In this document: positions 473 to 57,072 of the stretch, piece by piece
Layout: each line of letters begins with the position of its first letter
Numbering within the stretch: the first letter of the stretch is position 1
NCBI GenBank assembly: GCA_019637265.1
Contig: JAHBVY010000001.1
Coordinates: 1,550,001-1,614,000 of the forward strand
Length of the DNA stretch: 64,000 nucleotides
DNA from: Polyangiaceae bacterium
Lineage (GTDB): Bacteria; Myxococcota_A; Polyangia; Polyangiales; Polyangiaceae
Direction of reading: 5' to 3'
Position numbers and translations under genes: made by a program
Notes under the pieces: generated by a model
What the model saw: only the letters and a program-made list of their open reading frames with translations
Database searches by the model: none
Told to the model about the DNA's origin: nothing

Positions 473-592
473 GGAGGTCGTCACCGTAAGCGATGTGGGG
501 TGGGCTCGCAACGCGCGCCGCACTCGCTCCAGTTCTCGCGGGAGTTCCAGGCTCTGCTTCCCATTGGCGCCGAGAGCTGCAGCACCTCACGC

Positions 593-618
593 TGCGGTGC
601 CGTCCAACCCCCCAAACC
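593..618 (+). repeat. Dispersed repeat family 2, copy A
   Basis: The core GCGGTGCCGTCCAACCCCCC is shared, with one variable base before the AA, with copies near 10027 (plus) and 51415-51437 (reverse complement). It lies in the gap between the two leftmost minus-strand genes. Function is unknown. The rest of the 473-746 gap shows nothing else I can support. Confidence 0.6.
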
Positions 619-5490: not shown

Positions 5491-5996
5491 AACAAGCTCG
5501 CGGATCATGGGGTCTGTGCGGTGATACGCAACTGGGGTGCCAATCCATCCAAAAGCCGCCACATCAAGCCGCGTTAGCGCGCGGCCAGTCAGCGAAAAAT
5601 CTAATGATTTCAAGAGTTTAGGTAGATTGGATCGGCCACGGGGCCGCTCGAATCGAGCGAGCGAGCGCTCCCCAGCGCTCTCCCCACGCGGCCTCCAACG
5701 CGCGGCCTGTGCCTCCGCGGCACAGCGCGAGCGGCGCCGCGAGTTCACGCGGCGTGCTCGGTCTCATCCTCCCGGGCGTCACTCAGTCGCGACCGCGCGG
5801 CACCAAGCCAGCGACCTACAGTGACCTGCCAAACCCCCAACCCCAAGACCATACCATCTCCAAGGTGCGCCGGATGAACCACCTGATCGCCGTGGGCAGC
5901 GCCGAGGAGGCGCTCGACGCGGACAGGAGGACAGGGAGGTCTGTTGGAGTCAGGAGGAGGACGCCATGAGGCGACACCTCGGACGCGCTGCGTGAG
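5491..5996. other. 506-bp intergenic region between mlaC-like gene and pilS
   Basis: No convincing gene. It holds an unusually AT-rich block at about 5595-5630 with AATCTA...TAGATT inverted half-sites, plausibly promoter or operator for the leftward mlaC-like gene. It also holds a copy of dispersed repeat 1 at 5819-5838, and two tiny overlapping plus-strand reading frames: 31 codons from ATG 5873, and 9 codons from ATG 5966 behind the strong ribosome-binding sequence AGGAGGAGG. The latter two are unproven. Confidence 0.5.
5819..5838 (+). repeat. Dispersed repeat family 1, copy A
   Basis: CAGTGACCTGCCAAACCCCC. The first 19 bases occur exactly, in reverse complement, at 9612-9630 and 21566-21584. 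Shorter variants lie near 18646 and 26727. Here it is intergenic and followed by a second C tract (AACCCCAAG). Confidence 0.7.
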
Positions 5997-8811: not shown

Positions 8812-9948
8812 GTGACGTCGCTCAGTCAGGTGCTGGACTCAACGAGCTGCCGGGCGCTCAGCCAGGAGCTGGGCGCGATCGCCCGCGAGGAGCTGCTCCC
8901 CGCCAGCCCCGGCGGTGTGCTCGCCGCCGCGCGCCGGGCGAGCGTCACCGCGCCCTGGGAGATCGGCGCCGCGGCGGTGGGTCAGCTGGCCCTTGACGAC
9001 GCCACCCCGGTCGGGCTCGACACCCTGTATGACCTCGCCAGCGTCACCAAGCCGTTCGTCGCCTGCGCCGCGCTGAGCCTCACCCGCGGCGACCCCGCCC
9101 TGCTCCGCACCCCGCTCGGCGCGCTGCTGCCCGCGGCCATCGGCACCCCGAGCGAGCCCACGCCGCTCGAGGCGCTGCTCTGCCACCGCGCCGGGCTCGA
9201 GGCGCATCGCCCGCTGTACGAGCCGCTCACGCGCGGCTCACCCGTCGATCGTGAGGCCTCCCTGCGCATCGCCGCGGAGGCCATAGGCAGCGAAGAGGTG
9301 AGCCCGCCTGCCTTGTACAGCGACCTCGGCTACCTGCTGGCGGGCGCGGCGCTGGAGCGCAGGAGCGGGCTCCCGCTCGCCGAGCTGCTCGAGCAGGTGC
9401 TCACGCCCTGGGAGCTCGGGGGCACCTGCTGCGCCGCCGCGGAGCTCACGCAGGGCGGGCGGCACGCCGCACGTCAGGTCGCCCCCACGGAGGACGTCGC
9501 CTGGCGCGGCGGACGGGTGTGGCGGGTGGTGCACGACGAGAACGCCTTCGCGCTGGGGGGTTTGGGCGTGTGCGGACACGCGGGGCTCTTCGGGGACGTC
9601 CAGGGGGTTTTGGGGTTTGGCAGGTCACTGCTCGAGGAGTTGACGACGCCGGGCGTGGGTCGCTTGCCGGCTGGGGCGCTGCGAGCGGCGCTCGAGCCGC
9701 GCGCTGGGGGTAGCTACCTGCTCGGCTTCGATGGGCGGTCCCCGGAGGGCTCCTCCGCGGGCACGCGGTTCAGCCTGGCGAGCTTCGGGCACCTGGGCTT
9801 CACCGGGACCAGCCTGTGGTGTGATCCAGAGGCTCAGGTGGTGGTGGTGGTGCTGAGTAACCGCGTGTGCCCCACGCGGGACAACCCGAGGCTCCGCGCG
9901 GCGCGGCCCCGGATCCACGACCGGGTGCACCGGCTGCTCGTGGGATGA
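8812..9948 (+). CDS. Class C beta-lactamase-like serine hydrolase
   Basis: 378 residues from a GTG start. The family includes penicillin-binding esterases, D-Ala peptidases and AmpC-like enzymes acting through an active-site Ser. The sequence shows Ser77-x-x-Lys80 (SVTK), Tyr169-Ser-Asp (YSD in ALYSDLGYLLAG), and a late H-x-G motif (GHLGFTGTSLWCDP) followed by the strand QVVVVVLSNRV. There is no signal peptide, so it is probably cytoplasmic, unlike true secreted beta-lactamases. It is divergent from pilC across about 190 bp. Residues encoded at 9612-9630 coincide with a copy of dispersed repeat 1. Substrate cannot be inferred; resistance is not implied. Confidence 0.88.
   Translation: MTSLSQVLDSTSCRALSQELGAIAREELLPASPGGVLAAARRASVTAPWEIGAAAVGQLALDDATPVGLDTLYDLASVTKPFVACAALSLTRGDPALLRTPLGALLPAAIGTPSEPTPLEALLCHRAGLEAHRPLYEPLTRGSPVDREASLRIAAEAIGSEEVSPPALYSDLGYLLAGAALERRSGLPLAELLEQVLTPWELGGTCCAAAELTQGGRHAARQVAPTEDVAWRGGRVWRVVHDENAFALGGLGVCGHAGLFGDVQGVLGFGRSLLEELTTPGVGRLPAGALRAALEPRAGGSYLLGFDGRSPEGSSAGTRFSLASFGHLGFTGTSLWCDPEAQVVVVVLSNRVCPTRDNPRLRAARPRIHDRVHRLLVG
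9612..9630 (-). repeat. Dispersed repeat family 1, copy B inside a coding sequence
   Basis: GGGGTTTGGCAGGTCACTG is the exact reverse complement of the first 19 bases of 5819-5838 and identical to 21566-21584. In the serine hydrolase it contributes the codons for the segment around GVLGFGRSLLE, where related proteins also have a Gly-Phe-Gly-like helix start. Confidence 0.65.
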
Positions 9949-10295
9949 CCTGGGTCGGTGGGCGCGCGGGCGCGCCGCGGCGCCACGTGAGGGCCTGGCG
10001 TGTCCTTGCTGGCGGTGGCGTCACAGTGCGGTGCCGTCGAACCCCCCGATCCCCCTCGAGCACAGCAACGGCGACCGCGAGCCCTGACGAAAGCCACCCT
10101 CGGGCCACCTTGTGCCTCGACCTGGGGGAGGTTTTGAGCTTTAGTGCGCCGCGCCTGAGCCCTGCTGGTGGTGTCGCTCGCCTCTCCGAGGTCGAGCGGC
10201 GCGGTCGGAGGGGGTGCGCCAAGGCCCGCGACGTGGGGCTGGAGCGCGACTCTCCTTGGCTTGAGGCCCGTTAGCAGGCAGGATTAGACGCGCCC
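9949..10295. other. 347-bp intergenic region before the FHA gene
   Basis: No coding sequence I can support. It carries a copy of dispersed repeat 2 (GCGGTGCCGTCGAACCCCCC at about 10028-10047), and an A/G-rich CAGGCAGGATTAG close to the start of the FHA gene that may serve as its ribosome-binding region. No clear promoter hexamers or terminator hairpin were seen. Confidence 0.45.
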
Positions 10296-18470: not shown

Positions 18471-18807
18471 CACGCCTCCTAGCAAGGCGGGTGTGGTCGT
18501 TTCGGCGGAGCGAGTCAAGGCATGAGCCGCACCCTGACAAACAACGACCTACCTCCGCGCTGCTTGGCGATGGGCGCCAGCGCCATCACCTCGACGCCCA
18601 TCGCCTGGGCGCCCATCACCTCGGCCGGGTGCGCGCGGCGCGGTGCAGGCAAACCCCCAAAACCCCCGACCACCGCGTCACCCGCGTTCATCAAGCGCGT
18701 TCATCGGACCGCGCTCGTCAGACCGGCTCGTGAGGCGCGCTCGACGGCGCGATCAAACGCTGCGGCGAATCAACCTGAGGGACGGCGCGAACCAACGCCG
18801 CGGCGAA
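18471..18807. other. 337-bp intergenic region between ssb and merR-type gene
   Basis: No gene supported. It contains short degenerate direct repeats, such as GCGCC(C)ATCACCTCG twice at about 18580-18623, GCGTTCATC twice near 18683-18701, and a GCGGCGAATCAA unit twice near 18759-18810, plus a variant of dispersed repeat 1 (GCAGGCAAACCCCCAAAACC from 18646). The ssb ribosome-binding site lies at its left edge. Confidence 0.45.
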
Positions 18808-21328: not shown

Positions 21329-21674
21329 GCGGGTGGACGCCTCGTACCATCGCCGCTCCGGCCGATTGTCACCACAATGTAATTGTTTGCATGAGGTTGT
21401 AGGGAAGTGAATTCGCCTGTAAGTTCAATGAGTTACGCGAGCGCGCCCATCCGTGAGGGGTCGACTGGCGCCTCGATCCGACGCTCGAGGGGCCCGTGAG
21501 GGGTGCCCGCCAGCTCCTGGCCGGCCAGTCGGACAGGTGTCGGCTGTGGGCCGTTTTTTTTGGGGGGGGTTTGGCAGGTCACTGCGCTGACGGGGGTGGC
21601 AGCTGGAGGTGCGCCCCAGCGCTCCCGTCCAGGTAGCGCCCCACGTCGCCGCCCGATTCGGCTAGAGCCTCGGC
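21329..21674. other. 346-bp divergent region between GT2 and polA
   Basis: No gene seen. The part at 21360-21430 is markedly AT-rich (CACAATGTAATTGTTTGCAT) and is the likely promoter area of the leftward GT2 gene, though no confident hexamer pair was found. At 21553-21569 a T8G8 tract follows a short CGGC/GCCG hairpin and runs into dispersed repeat 1. Confidence 0.5.
21562..21584 (-). repeat. Dispersed repeat family 1, copy C, with G8 tract
   Basis: A G8 run is followed by TTTGGCAGGTCACTG; the last 19 bases equal 9612-9630 and the reverse complement of 5819-5837. It is directly preceded by eight T residues and a weak hairpin, an arrangement echoed at 51382-51437. It lies about 90 bp upstream of polA. 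Confidence 0.7.
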
Positions 21675-26672: not shown

Positions 26673-26726
26673 AGCGCGCTCCAGGCGCACCCCCAGCGCA
26701 CGAGCCTGCTACGAGGCAATCAGTCT

Positions 26727-26747
26727 CACTGCCAAACCCCCAAACCC
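26727..26747 (+). repeat. Dispersed repeat family 1, diverged copy
   Basis: CACTGCCAAACCCCCAAACC shares the CTGCCAAACCCCC block with 5819-5838 but lacks the GACCT step. It is intergenic, between two convergent genes and just before the terminator hairpin. Confidence 0.5.
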
Positions 26748-26814: not shown

Positions 26815-29232
26815 TCACGGATCCGGCTGACGCACGCAGCGAACCCGGTTGACGTTCGCTACTGGGTGGACGGCAGCGTGGCCATTGCCGGCGAACACCA
26901 CCCAACCACCCGAGGCGCCCGAGACGAGCGCGTTCGACCAGGTGGTCACGTCGGGGAAGGGGGTCGCCGCCGGGAAAATACTGGTGTCTTGATAGGGTGA
27001 GGTCGACTTACGACCTGGCACCAAGCCGTGCAGCTCCAGCAGGGTGGGGACCCGCCAGCCGGTCTTGGCGTCCAGCGTGAGCCCCGCGCAGTAGTCGCCG
27101 GCTCCCACCTGGCTGTACCCAAAGGCCGAGACCTCCCGCTGCCACTCGAGGCCGGTCGCCGCGTCGAGCACCGTGTTCCCGGTCACCTCGAAGAAGTGGC
27201 CGCTCGCCGGCACGGGAGCCTGTGGCGTGGCGTCGGCCACGCAGCGCACGTGACGCGCGGCGGTGGTCGCGATCACGTGGGCTATGCCTTGCGCGAACGC
27301 CACCACCCACCCCTGGCTCTCCCCAGGGCGCGCCGTCTCCGACCAGAAGTCGATGTTCGCGCCATGCGGCGTGCTCGGGAACGCAGCGCCATCGATCGCT
27401 GGATCCCGCTGGGTGAGGTCGACGATGGAGAGCAGCTCCATCCGGGTGGGCAGCCGCCAGTCGCTGCGCCCGCCCCAGACCAGGTTGCTGCAATAGGTCT
27501 TCCCTGCGCTGAAGCTGTGCGTGCCGGACGCCACCTCCTGCTGCCATAGCAGGCCCGTCACGTTGTCCAGCACGGTTTTGTCAGTGTTATTGACGGTATA
27601 GCTGACGGCGTGCCCAGGCGAGCCGGGCAGCGGCCCGCGCGCGTAGCCCTCGTAGTCGACCAGCGGCGCAGGCTGGCATGAGCCCAGCTCGCAATGCGGC
27701 TCAGCCCCGCTGCAGGTCTCGACCACCGAGATAGTCAGTCCATCTGCCGCGCACTGCAGCACCTGAGCGCCGTCACAGCTCCGCTGGTTCGGCGTGCAGC
27801 AATTGCCCCCGGCGCAGGTCAGCCCGCCCGAGCACTCTGCGCCTCGCGGCGAAGCGGCGAGGCCGTCCGCCGCGCAGACCATCGGCACGTTGTCGTCGCA
27901 GTAGCTCGTGCCCGCTGCGCACACCCAGGGCTCGCACACCCCGGCGACGCAGGTCGTGCTGCCGCTGCAGGCGCTCCCATGGTCCTCATACCCCAGTCCA
28001 TCCGCGCGGCAGCGTCGGGGCTGCTGCCCCGCGCACTGAGAGGCGCTGGCCTCCGGCGTGCACGTCTGCGGCTGACACACGCCGCTGACGCAGGTCTCCC
28101 CCGCCGCGCAGGCAGCTCGGCTCAGCTCGCTCAGCCCATCCACCGAGCACACGACGCGCTCGTTGCCATCGCAGAAGATGGACTGCGGCTGACAGACCCA
28201 GTCCACGCACGAGCCGCCGACGCAGCCCTCGGCGCAGAGCGCGCCGTCATCGACGAAGCCATCGCCGCTGGTGTTGCAGATCCTCCGTTGGCGACCATTG
28301 CAGATCACCTCCCCTGGCGCGCACGCGGTGGGCTCGCAGCCTCCCATCACGCAGCGCTCCCCCGCCGCGCAAGCGCTGCGGCTCGCCTCGCTCAAGCCAT
28401 CAGTAGCGCAGATGACGCTACTGTTTCCATCACAGAACACTGCGCCCGGATCGCAGACCCAAGGCTCACAGGCGCCCTCCACGCAGGTCGCTTGGTCGCA
28501 AGACTGACCATGATCTTCGAGGGCCAAGCCGTCGGCGCGGCAGCGCTGCGGCTGGTTCCCCTGGCAGCTCGCGGCCCCCGGCGTGCACTCCCAACCCACG
28601 CAGGCACCCTCCACGCAGCTGGTCCGCGTCGCCGCGGTGCAGCGCTGCACCTCTCCCCAGCCCACGCGGCTCACGTGGCAGGCCATCACCACGTCACCCT
28701 CGCAGTAGGTGTCGCCCGCCGCGCAGGATTCCCAGTCGGAAAAATTCGACTCGGAGCTGCTCACGCACACGTTGGCGATGCAGGTGTGCTCGTTGCGCGG
28801 GCACTGCGCCGTGGCGCTGCACGGCATGCGGCACTTCCCGTCGGGCGCGCACGCCAGGCTGGTGCTGCAAGGCTGGTGACTCGAGCAAGCCATCTCGCTC
28901 GGCAGCGAGCAGCCGTAAGGCTTGCGATCGCCGAGGCACAGCGCCCCCTGAGGGCACTCCGCGTCCGTCGCGCAGCCATGACGGCAGAACCCCATCACGC
29001 ACACCCCGCCCGGGCCACAGCCCGTGTCCTCCGGGCCGCTGCACTGCTTACCCACCTCCACCTGGATCGACTGACTGACGTGATTGTCCTTACTGCACCC
29101 CCCCGCGCTGAGCGCTCCCAGCGCGAAGAGCACCGCCGCGCTCAGGACTCCAATGGGTCGAATCGCCGGTCGGGGTGCTCGCGCACCGAGCTGTGAGCCC
29201 AAATGGCGTACCCTGACAGCCTGCTTCATCAT
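26815..29232 (-). CDS. Cys-rich lipoprotein with two DUF1566 domains
   Basis: 805 residues. A lipoprotein signal ends at Cys46 (LGALSAGGC). Residues about 55-540 are eight or more tandem Cys-rich modules of roughly 40 residues, with phrases such as CDGNERVVCSVDGLSELSRA and CAAGERCVMGGCEP repeating with spaced Cys residues, likely disulfide-bonded knots outside the cell. Two DUF1566 (Lcl C-terminal) domains follow: the first with TGLLWQQEV, WRLPTRMELLSIVD and FWSETA, ending HVRCVAD; the second with TGLEWQREVS, WRVPTLLELHGLV and TWSNALVSG, ending RVRCVRQPD. Such proteins are abundant at the myxobacterial cell surface and may act in adhesion or predation, which is inference. GAAAGGCAG lies just upstream of the ATG at 29230-29232. 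Confidence 0.85.
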   Translation of the reverse strand: MMKQAVRVRHLGSQLGARAPRPAIRPIGVLSAAVLFALGALSAGGCSKDNHVSQSIQVEVGKQCSGPEDTGCGPGGVCVMGFCRHGCATDAECPQGALCLGDRKPYGCSLPSEMACSSHQPCSTSLACAPDGKCRMPCSATAQCPRNEHTCIANVCVSSSESNFSDWESCAAGDTYCEGDVVMACHVSRVGWGEVQRCTAATRTSCVEGACVGWECTPGAASCQGNQPQRCRADGLALEDHGQSCDQATCVEGACEPWVCDPGAVFCDGNSSVICATDGLSEASRSACAAGERCVMGGCEPTACAPGEVICNGRQRRICNTSGDGFVDDGALCAEGCVGGSCVDWVCQPQSIFCDGNERVVCSVDGLSELSRAACAAGETCVSGVCQPQTCTPEASASQCAGQQPRRCRADGLGYEDHGSACSGSTTCVAGVCEPWVCAAGTSYCDDNVPMVCAADGLAASPRGAECSGGLTCAGGNCCTPNQRSCDGAQVLQCAADGLTISVVETCSGAEPHCELGSCQPAPLVDYEGYARGPLPGSPGHAVSYTVNNTDKTVLDNVTGLLWQQEVASGTHSFSAGKTYCSNLVWGGRSDWRLPTRMELLSIVDLTQRDPAIDGAAFPSTPHGANIDFWSETARPGESQGWVVAFAQGIAHVIATTAARHVRCVADATPQAPVPASGHFFEVTGNTVLDAATGLEWQREVSAFGYSQVGAGDYCAGLTLDAKTGWRVPTLLELHGLVPGRKSTSPYQDTSIFPAATPFPDVTTWSNALVSGASGGWVVFAGNGHAAVHPVANVNRVRCVRQPDP

Positions 29233-42388: not shown

Positions 42389-42434
42389 GGCGCTTTATCT
42401 CAGAGCTCCGAGAGCGCCGCAACGCCGAGCGAGG

Positions 42435-42640
42435 CACACCCAACGCCCACGCTCAGCGCGCTCACTCAGCGCGCTTCGGTACACCCAGCGCCAAGCAGCG
42501 CGCTCACTCGGCGCGCTTCGGCGCACACCCCGAAGCACACCCAGCGCCCACGCTCAGCGCGCGCTCACTCAGCGCGCTTCGGCACACCCAACGCCAAGCA
42601 GCGCGCTCACTCGGCGCGCTTCGGCGCACACCCAGCTCAC
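42435..42640. repeat. Tandem repeat, 101-bp unit, two copies plus a partial
   Basis: The unit starts CACACCCAACGCCCACGCTC at 42435 and again, with CACACCCAGC, at 42536; a third start appears at about 42627. Inside each unit the block GCTCACTC(A/G)GCGCGCTTCGG occurs twice, giving four copies. It fills the gap between the mutS start and the lipoprotein gene end. It has no CRISPR features: the repeated units are long and no unique spacers separate them. Confidence 0.8.
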
Positions 42641-47661: not shown

Positions 47662-48280
47662 GCGCGACCTCGCTCGGTGATGGACGCCTTCAGGGCGACC
47701 AGGGCACTAATCCAACTACTCTAATAACGCTGAACCTGTGGTCAAGTTCACTTCAAGCGCGAGGCCTGAAGGCCGGGGTGGTGACGAAACTGATGACGCC
47801 GCGAGGTCACGCGCCGCGAGCGCGGCCTGGCGGTGCACGTGGGTGTAGACGAACCAAGGGCTGAGGTCCATGCAGTGTCGCTGAGGCAGCGTCACCAGGC
47901 TTCAGAGTCACCAAGCGACCGCATCGCTGGGCCACGGAGCTGCCGGGCATCGTCACCCGGCGCCTGCAGCGACGCGCTGCGACACGGAGCGGGACCAACC
48001 CCCCCCCCCTCCCCTACACCCTGTGACGCTGACAGCGGCAGCACACCACACTTCGTTCTCGTCGACCCGGACACCGCGTCACGTCGAGGCCCTGATCGCG
48101 CTGCCATACCCGCGCCTCGCTCTGGGACCGGCCGAACCGCCGAATCTTCCCCTGAGGGCATCGATCGATCAGGGTTTGGGGGTTCGCCCCCGCTGCCCGC
48201 CCCGCGCGACCCTGCGAGCCCGCCCCGGCGGCGCCTTCGCGGTATGGTGCACCGCCTTGCCTCTCCCCTCGCCTCCCCTC
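47662..48280. other. 619-bp divergent region with possible operator
   Basis: No gene supported. An AT-rich segment at 47708-47756 contains TGAAC-(10)-GTTCA, an inverted pair, overlapping TTGACC on the minus strand, a plausible promoter/operator for the 58-residue gene. A C-run lies at 48000-48010 and a GGGGG-TTCG-CCCCC hairpin at 48178-48191. The start of the rightward DUF4350 gene is uncertain, so its true 5' end may lie inside this region. Confidence 0.4.
48178..48191. other. GGGGG-TTCG-CCCCC hairpin, copy 1
   Basis: A perfect 5-bp G:C stem with a TTCG loop, preceded by GGGTTT. The same 14 bases plus a following G occur at 56813-56826. Here it lies about 90 bp ahead of the proposed DUF4350 start; no T run follows, so a terminator role is unsupported. 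Confidence 0.45.
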
Positions 48281-51414: not shown

Positions 51415-51437
51415 GGGGGGGTTAGACGGCACCGCGC
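51415..51437 (-). repeat. Dispersed repeat family 2, copy C, after a terminator
   Basis: GGGGGGGTTAGACGGCACCG then CGC. Reverse complemented it reads GCGGTGCCGTCTAACCCCCC, matching the copies near 593 and 10028 except at the variable base before AA. It abuts the T8 tract of the terminator. Confidence 0.65.
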
Positions 51438-51448
51438 CGGGCGGCGCC

Positions 51449-56812: not shown

Positions 56813-56826
56813 GTGGGGGTTCGCCC
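56813..56826. other. GGGGG-TTCG-CCCCC hairpin, copy 2
   Basis: The same perfect G:C hairpin with TTCG loop as at 48178-48191, here five bases after the lipoprotein stop. No T run follows. It may stabilise the 3' end of the rsmA-lipoprotein mRNA. Confidence 0.5.
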
Positions 56827-57072
56827 CCGATGCATGAAGCCGCGCGGCGGCGCGAGCCCACTGTCAACCGACGCGCCGCGCAGCGCCACGCGGCTCAGTC
56901 AGTGACGCGAACCATCTCCCGGCTCCAACCGAACCCCCTGCCCTCACCCTACCCCGGGATATCGCGGGTGACGCACGTTCGCGGCCCCCGCGATGTCACA
57001 GGCTCACAGACGACGTGATGTCACAGACGACGTGGGCTCACAGAGCGATGTGGGAGGCGGGGTCGCGACGCC

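Follow-up and report, generated by a model that had tools for sequence, protein, structure and literature searches.

The 19-mer GGGGTTTGGCAGGTCACTG that lies inside a serine hydrolase gene of a Polyangiaceae bacterium genuinely belongs to a dispersed family of motifs that is species-specific and present in high copy number. With roughly even confidence, our model suggests that it arose there by in-register replacement of existing codons, without net insertion. A preliminary description of this DNA had proposed that either an element inserted and was tolerated, or the intergenic copies derive from a coding source; in-place replacement fits better than either of these options. Copies in conserved genes directly test how a repeat spreads, as insertion leaves gaps in alignments and replacement leaves none. 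In this case the evidence tends towards replacement, an unusual outcome for a repeat otherwise resembling a small copied element.

The window, that is, the whole stretch of 64,000 nucleotides analyzed, carries the hydrolase gene at 8812..9948 (+), an ORF of 378 aa with an intact frame and a beta-lactamase fold (PF00144). The Pfam profile PF00144 matches the protein with 105.1 bits (cut-off 27; E 5.7e-30), and the SVTK, YSD and HLG residues, which are expected for this fold, are present by inspection. As first described, GGGGTTTGGCAGGTCACTG occupies positions 9612-9630 (+), in frame, as part of GVLGFGRSLLE. The family match reaches past these 19 bases, since the preceding G/T tract belongs to the motif. 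The in-gene copy, defined by exact match, motif score and rare codons, consists of the end of this tract plus GGGGTTTGGCAGGTCACTG (9604..9630, +), where the codons GGG GTT TTG GGG TTT GGC AGG TCA CTG encode GVLGFGRSL. No close paralogue of the hydrolase was found in its own genome, which gave a single weak partial match at E<=0.001, and a plasmid search returned one partial match, which gave no information on the motif. Solved structures resembling the protein numbered 0 at 1e-8 and 11 at 0.01, and in none of these 11 did the best stretch span residues 255-275.

The same 19-mer had been noted as intergenic elsewhere, and this was confirmed by exact occurrences between genes at 5819-5837 (-) and 21566-21584 (+), within class A copies at 5808..5837 (-) and 21566..21595 (+). 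A further intergenic class A copy, at 26711..26740 (-), has a different 3' half. Intergenic class B copies lie at 582..611 (-; GGGGTTGGACGGCACCGC), at 10016..10045 (-; GGGGTTCGACGGCACCGC), just downstream of the hydrolase gene, and at 51418..51447 (+; GGGGTTAGACGGCACCGC). Other variants, all of them intergenic, are GGGGTTTGCCTGCACCGC at 18628..18657 (-), the spaced form GGGGTTGGTCCCGC...GCGTCGCTGCAGG at 47973..48002 (-), GGGGTTCGCCCCCGCTGC at 48179..48208 (+) and GGGGTTCGCCCCCGATGC at 56816..56845 (+). In total, 14 heads were found in the window and 11 were counted as family members; those left out are at 28964 and 33021, which are in genes and lack a known continuation, and at 56908, where the continuation is unclear. 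The window also holds imperfect tandem repeats of GCGCGCTCACTCAGCGCGCTTCGG-type units (42414-42633) and spaced direct repeats, mostly ~130 nt apart, inside a called gene on the minus strand (27889-28618).

All family members share a head, composed of a G/T tract followed by GGGGGTT. After the head, class A continues with TGGC and a variable half, class B with GGACGGCACCGC, and further variants differ again. Read on the opposite strand, the elements end in AACCCCC; among 761 intergenic AACCCC-type tracts in 2.464 Mb, some of them perhaps outside the motif family, 381 have exactly five C, and in 237 AAA follows. Class B occurs at 332 places within one mismatch in its own genome, and perfect intergenic copies of the class B 19-mer (78) outnumber singly mismatched ones (49). 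Several families have just the head in common and do not reduce to one short consensus, though the motif is over-represented. Folding of the copies in the first 864 kb revealed no hairpin excess (mean z -0.71 to 0.07 against mononucleotide shuffles). A tRNA-like reading of GGGGTTCGACTCCC variants was considered; six loci gave one ordinary tRNA at Rfam gathering scores.

Longer forms also exist. A repeat of ~170 nt has at least 40 copies in its own genome (40 of 416 candidates scored), for example at L065:6425-6617. When 43 of these long units were aligned, 33 began, on the element strand, with the class B sequence GGTGCCGTC(C/T)AACC and 3 with GACTACCCGTCCAACC, 34 ended in GGGAGTG(A/C)ACCC, and 32 combined the class B start with such an end; the long-unit consensus showed no terminal inverted repeats by eye. 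Near C1:948.17-948.62 kb, three fused units follow one another head to tail, repeating every 144-148 nt. Given these constant ends and tandem units, the forms, short and long alike, look as if a common start and a common end enclosed zero, one or three units. The family is modular, its elements measuring ~20 to 450 nt.

The whole genome (5.71 Mb) contains 8 exact 19-mers, and 136 places match within 3 mismatches, compared with 1 for the reversed pattern; at that tolerance no more than 2 places were found in any of 19 relatives. All 8 exact copies fall within the 2.464 Mb analyzed, 6 of them intergenic and 2 in called genes. A 30-position matrix, derived from 51 intergenic copies, ranks the hydrolase copy seventh in the first 864 kb (38.7), where the reversed control produced 0 matches scoring >22. 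Across the 2.464 Mb, 97 sites score >30, against 0 for the reversed control; called genes contain 13 of the 97, and 8 of these lie 60 nt or more inside. Genes were called by codon usage and the calls may over-extend at gene ends, so the in-gene counts are upper estimates.

In the same 2.464 Mb, 82.5% coding by these calls, 124 of the 130 class B cores and 136 of the 175 class A cores lie between genes; class A is represented by a 10-mer core, part of whose coding matches is expected by chance. Copies occur alike in divergent, convergent and tandem intergenic regions, and no gene-orientation preference was visible in the first 864 kb (class A, 24 versus 28; class B, 21 versus 20). With no orientation bias visible in these 864 kb, a Rho site, a terminator and a promoter were rejected. 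A sigma-54-like reading of TTGGCA...TGC was likewise rejected, as its spacing is one base short and there is no orientation to genes; so was an integron attC reading of GTTRRRY, which class A does not fit. GC skew flips sign on C1 somewhere from 600 to 1000 kb, a hint of a replication origin or terminus. No consistent strand bias of the copies was seen on either side of this switch, and a polar segregation motif was discarded for that reason.

The family seems to be linked to the genus. Within one mismatch, the 19-mer occurs at 20 places in its own genome, and among 182 other genomes of the order 2 have it once each; class B at the same tolerance gave one match each in 6 of these 182. The 3' pattern CNAACCCCCAAANCC is found 244 times in its own genome, 22 times in a same-genus genome, each time as CTAAC, and at most once in any of 37 other relatives; thus, we consider the motif family genus-linked, apparently with species-specific variants, on the basis of one other genus member examined. 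In that genome the 3' motif AACCCCCAAANCC stands at 22 places, always with CT before it, which makes it another variant, in a sister species. A search of a species-genome collection, from which the organism's own records were possibly excluded, recovered the exact 19-mer in one stretch, from an unrelated Paracoccaceae genome. Among viral contigs, 8 stretches were found with one pattern match each and no array of family copies. Among the papers listed, the literature search returned nothing on a described repeat in this group, although different wording might reveal one.

We then turn to the hydrolase homologues. The protein search gave matches in 37 of 39 genomes, its own included, and the loci of the best 29 of the 36 other genomes with a match were aligned. 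Residues 255-275 are free of gaps in all 29 relatives, hence there is no sign of net insertion in the hydrolase. Of the residues encoded by the motif, V266 and G270 recur in 27/29 relatives apiece, F269 in 16/29 and S272 in 0/29. The homologous nucleotides of the 29 relatives differ from the 27-nt motif at 11 or more positions (median 14); for 20,000 random windows from the same loci the mean was 19.8 differences and the minimum also 11. Four codons of the motif are rare: GTT, TTT, AGG and TCA are used at 2-9% of the commonest synonym, whereas GGG, TTG and GGC are less unusual. An 8-codon window, the lower of two tried, falls at the 0.0009 quantile of 555,832 coding windows, and a 10-codon window over the motif at the 0.003 quantile of 200,457 windows. 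The ungapped alignment, the lineage-only nucleotides and the rare codons together indicate an old protein framework bearing a new nucleotide string.

These results separate the parts of the preliminary interpretation. Capture of the repeat in this lineage is supported, since the homologues differ at so many positions of the 27-nt string and codon choice is atypical. Distant homologues with an identical nucleotide string, named there as the finding that would speak for simple conservation, do not occur among the 29 aligned relatives. Insertion into the hydrolase finds no support, given the ungapped relatives, and neither does a coding origin of the intergenic copies, given the many variants and the intergenic position of most class A and class B cores.

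Other in-gene copies gave divergent answers. In trpE (C12:642553-643923, -), an in-frame class A copy encodes PIAPPNPQKLP. Among the 7 closest relatives, 6 show no gap across the motif and one has a single-residue gap just ahead of it, and 12/12 more distant relatives spanning the site are gapped somewhere within the stretch shown; the codons of this copy are just mildly unusual (quantile 0.07). In dnaE2 (C1:955038-958577, -), an in-frame class A copy encodes RSALPNPQKTQ, and the stretch around it exceeds that of 8 relatives by 33-40 residues, as read from the coordinates of broken alignments. Further relatives, among them the same-genus one, align across it in one piece, and the extra length is several times the motif length. 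Judged by these alignments, the trpE copy would agree with overwriting of existing codons, and the dnaE2 copy would not. The exact 19-mer at C1:982584 lies in a gene (C1:981626-983080) for a membrane protein, as named by eye, within an island of non-coding-like codons. Further copies were seen in two radical-SAM proteins and a sulfatase-activating-like protein, names again assigned by eye from the sequence.

How could the hydrolase codons have been replaced? Successive substitutions, kept for improving the motif, would be one route; short-patch copying from other copies, by gene conversion or recombination, would be another. Either way, the motif would be readable as G-V-L-G-F-G-R-S-L, and the hydrolase copy may have survived because this fits the enzyme-family pattern xVxxFGxxLL. 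Neighbouring copies are no more alike than distant ones, which leaves local gene conversion without support. As the relatives are only ~41-51% identical to the hydrolase, gradual substitution, a one-step patch and insertion with equal deletion cannot be told apart. We infer that replacement is a general way in which the family spreads and that recognition by a putative DNA-binding or uptake machinery maintains the motif. Against replacement stand the absence of S272 from all relatives, the extra length at the dnaE2 copy, the gaps in the more distant trpE relatives, the excess of perfect over singly mismatched class B copies, and the long units, most of which have constant ends. Our confidence in replacement goes no higher than an even split because the class B copy-number pattern and the fused long units weigh against it.

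The same observations lend some weight to a different history, less probable in our view, in which insertion of a small mobile element was offset by the loss of as much target sequence, so that frame and length stayed intact. The ~170-nt units, mostly with constant ends and in one locus fused as three in tandem, would suit such an element, as would the extra length coinciding with the dnaE2 copy, the island of non-coding-like codons around the exact copy in C1:981626-983080, and the surplus of perfect class B copies. However, for the hydrolase this history requires that a deletion balanced the insertion exactly and that the element happened to fit the conserved V, F and G positions, and trpE is also gap-free in 6/7 closest relatives. 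Nor were the traces of a mobile element found: there were no target-site duplications, the flank matches of 114 class B and 175 class A sites equalling those of mismatched-pair controls; the genome, 98.5% complete, had no match at E<=0.001 to the Y1 transposase profile PF01797 or the reverse transcriptase profile PF00078, for which 5/14 and 3/14 control genomes, respectively, were positive. A search for empty paralogous sites of 220 elements yielded 13 candidate rows, all from C1:569056, with unconvincing matches of 23-33 nt. The two repeats of a diverged tandem duplication, at C1:203.9 and 207.0 kb, both show homology starting at a class A copy; breakpoints may thus occur at such sites as well.

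Somewhat unlikely, too, is that the motif is a putative binding site of a chromosomal protein, for organization, segregation or regulation, built by selected point mutations, with the gene copy as one such site. The class A 3' half does have a degenerate, position-specific consensus, the motif is present alike in all three kinds of intergenic region, and the 3' motif is repeated too in the one same-genus genome. In contrast, polar segregation motifs would show a strand preference beside the GC-skew switch, where none is consistent here; for a regulatory site, the class B consensus is very strict, and the copies show no visible orientation relative to genes.

Chance resemblance within a G/T-rich stretch of the gene is very improbable. 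Codon usage is generally weaker in the second half of the hydrolase gene, as such a resemblance might have it, but on the sense strand of 1456 called genes 12 matches score >20 and 3 >30, with the hydrolase as the maximum (38.5), whereas 25 synonymous-codon shuffles of these genes gave 0 matches >20 and a highest score of 18.3. On the antisense strand, 9 matches in called genes exceed 30, compared with one across all 25 shuffles. Moreover, the hydrolase copy exactly matches the commonest 9-nt variant (8 copies). That the hydrolase gene was the source of the intergenic copies can be dismissed almost entirely: its copy does coincide with the commonest class A variant, but many variants unlike the gene have the same G/T tract and head as the intergenic copies, those inspected lack flanking hydrolase sequence, and the gene is not a likely source when most copies are intergenic and of several variants.

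Returning to replacement, we tentatively propose, as a possibility that we rate clearly below even, that a genus-restricted system writes itself into DNA, conserved enzyme genes included, by in-place replacement, its variants sharing the end AACCCCC-AAA-CCC, with an optional ~150-nt unit present 0, 1 or 3 times. If true, this would be a further uptake-like or recombination-driven motif, outside Pasteurellaceae and Neisseriaceae. Replacement at the hydrolase site, if confirmed, would link a lineage-specific repeat expansion to a replacement process, with trpE, dnaE2 and the hydrolase as natural recorders.

Known uptake sequences offer the closest comparison. In a Haemophilus study, uptake signals in genes were shown by a gap test not to be insertions, and an excess of perfect copies, called typical of elements that multiply by copying, was shared by uptake signals (PMC1626085). 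For Neisseria, many new uptake sequences are reported to be too unlike their homologues for point mutation, and recombination was proposed (PMC2397512). Our family resembles USS (Pasteurellaceae) and DUS (Neisseria) in high copy number and tight consensus. As with uptake signals, its in-gene copies lack a net insertion in the hydrolase (29/29 relatives) and, for 6/7 closest relatives, in trpE, but the dnaE2 copy comes with extra length. Unlike USS and DUS, this motif is longer, 78-95% of its cores are intergenic depending on class, it has several variants, and its longer forms carry one or three ~150-nt units; uptake is a candidate role. Because the family is longer, mainly intergenic and modular (~20 to 450 nt), its membership of the USS/DUS group is not established.

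Like HIP1 of cyanobacteria, the motif is highly repeated. HIP1 reportedly propagates via nucleotide substitutions, going by the title of Robinson et al. 1997 (cited in PMC4390886). It is described as an 8-nt palindrome linked to methyltransferases, whereas this motif is no palindrome, exceeds that length and lies mostly between genes.

REP elements with RAYT transposases, and MITEs, are short, intergenic, high-copy repeats without coding capacity, and in all these respects the family is like them. It differs from REP/RAYT elements in showing no hairpin excess and no Y1 transposase (PF01797), two absences that ruled out a hairpin/REP reading, and from MITEs in having no target duplications and no terminal inverted repeat visible by eye. 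Though no Y1 transposase was found, a second, palindromic family, GTAGGGGCGGGTTTCAAACC, is strongly over-represented in the intergenic regions of the first 864 kb.
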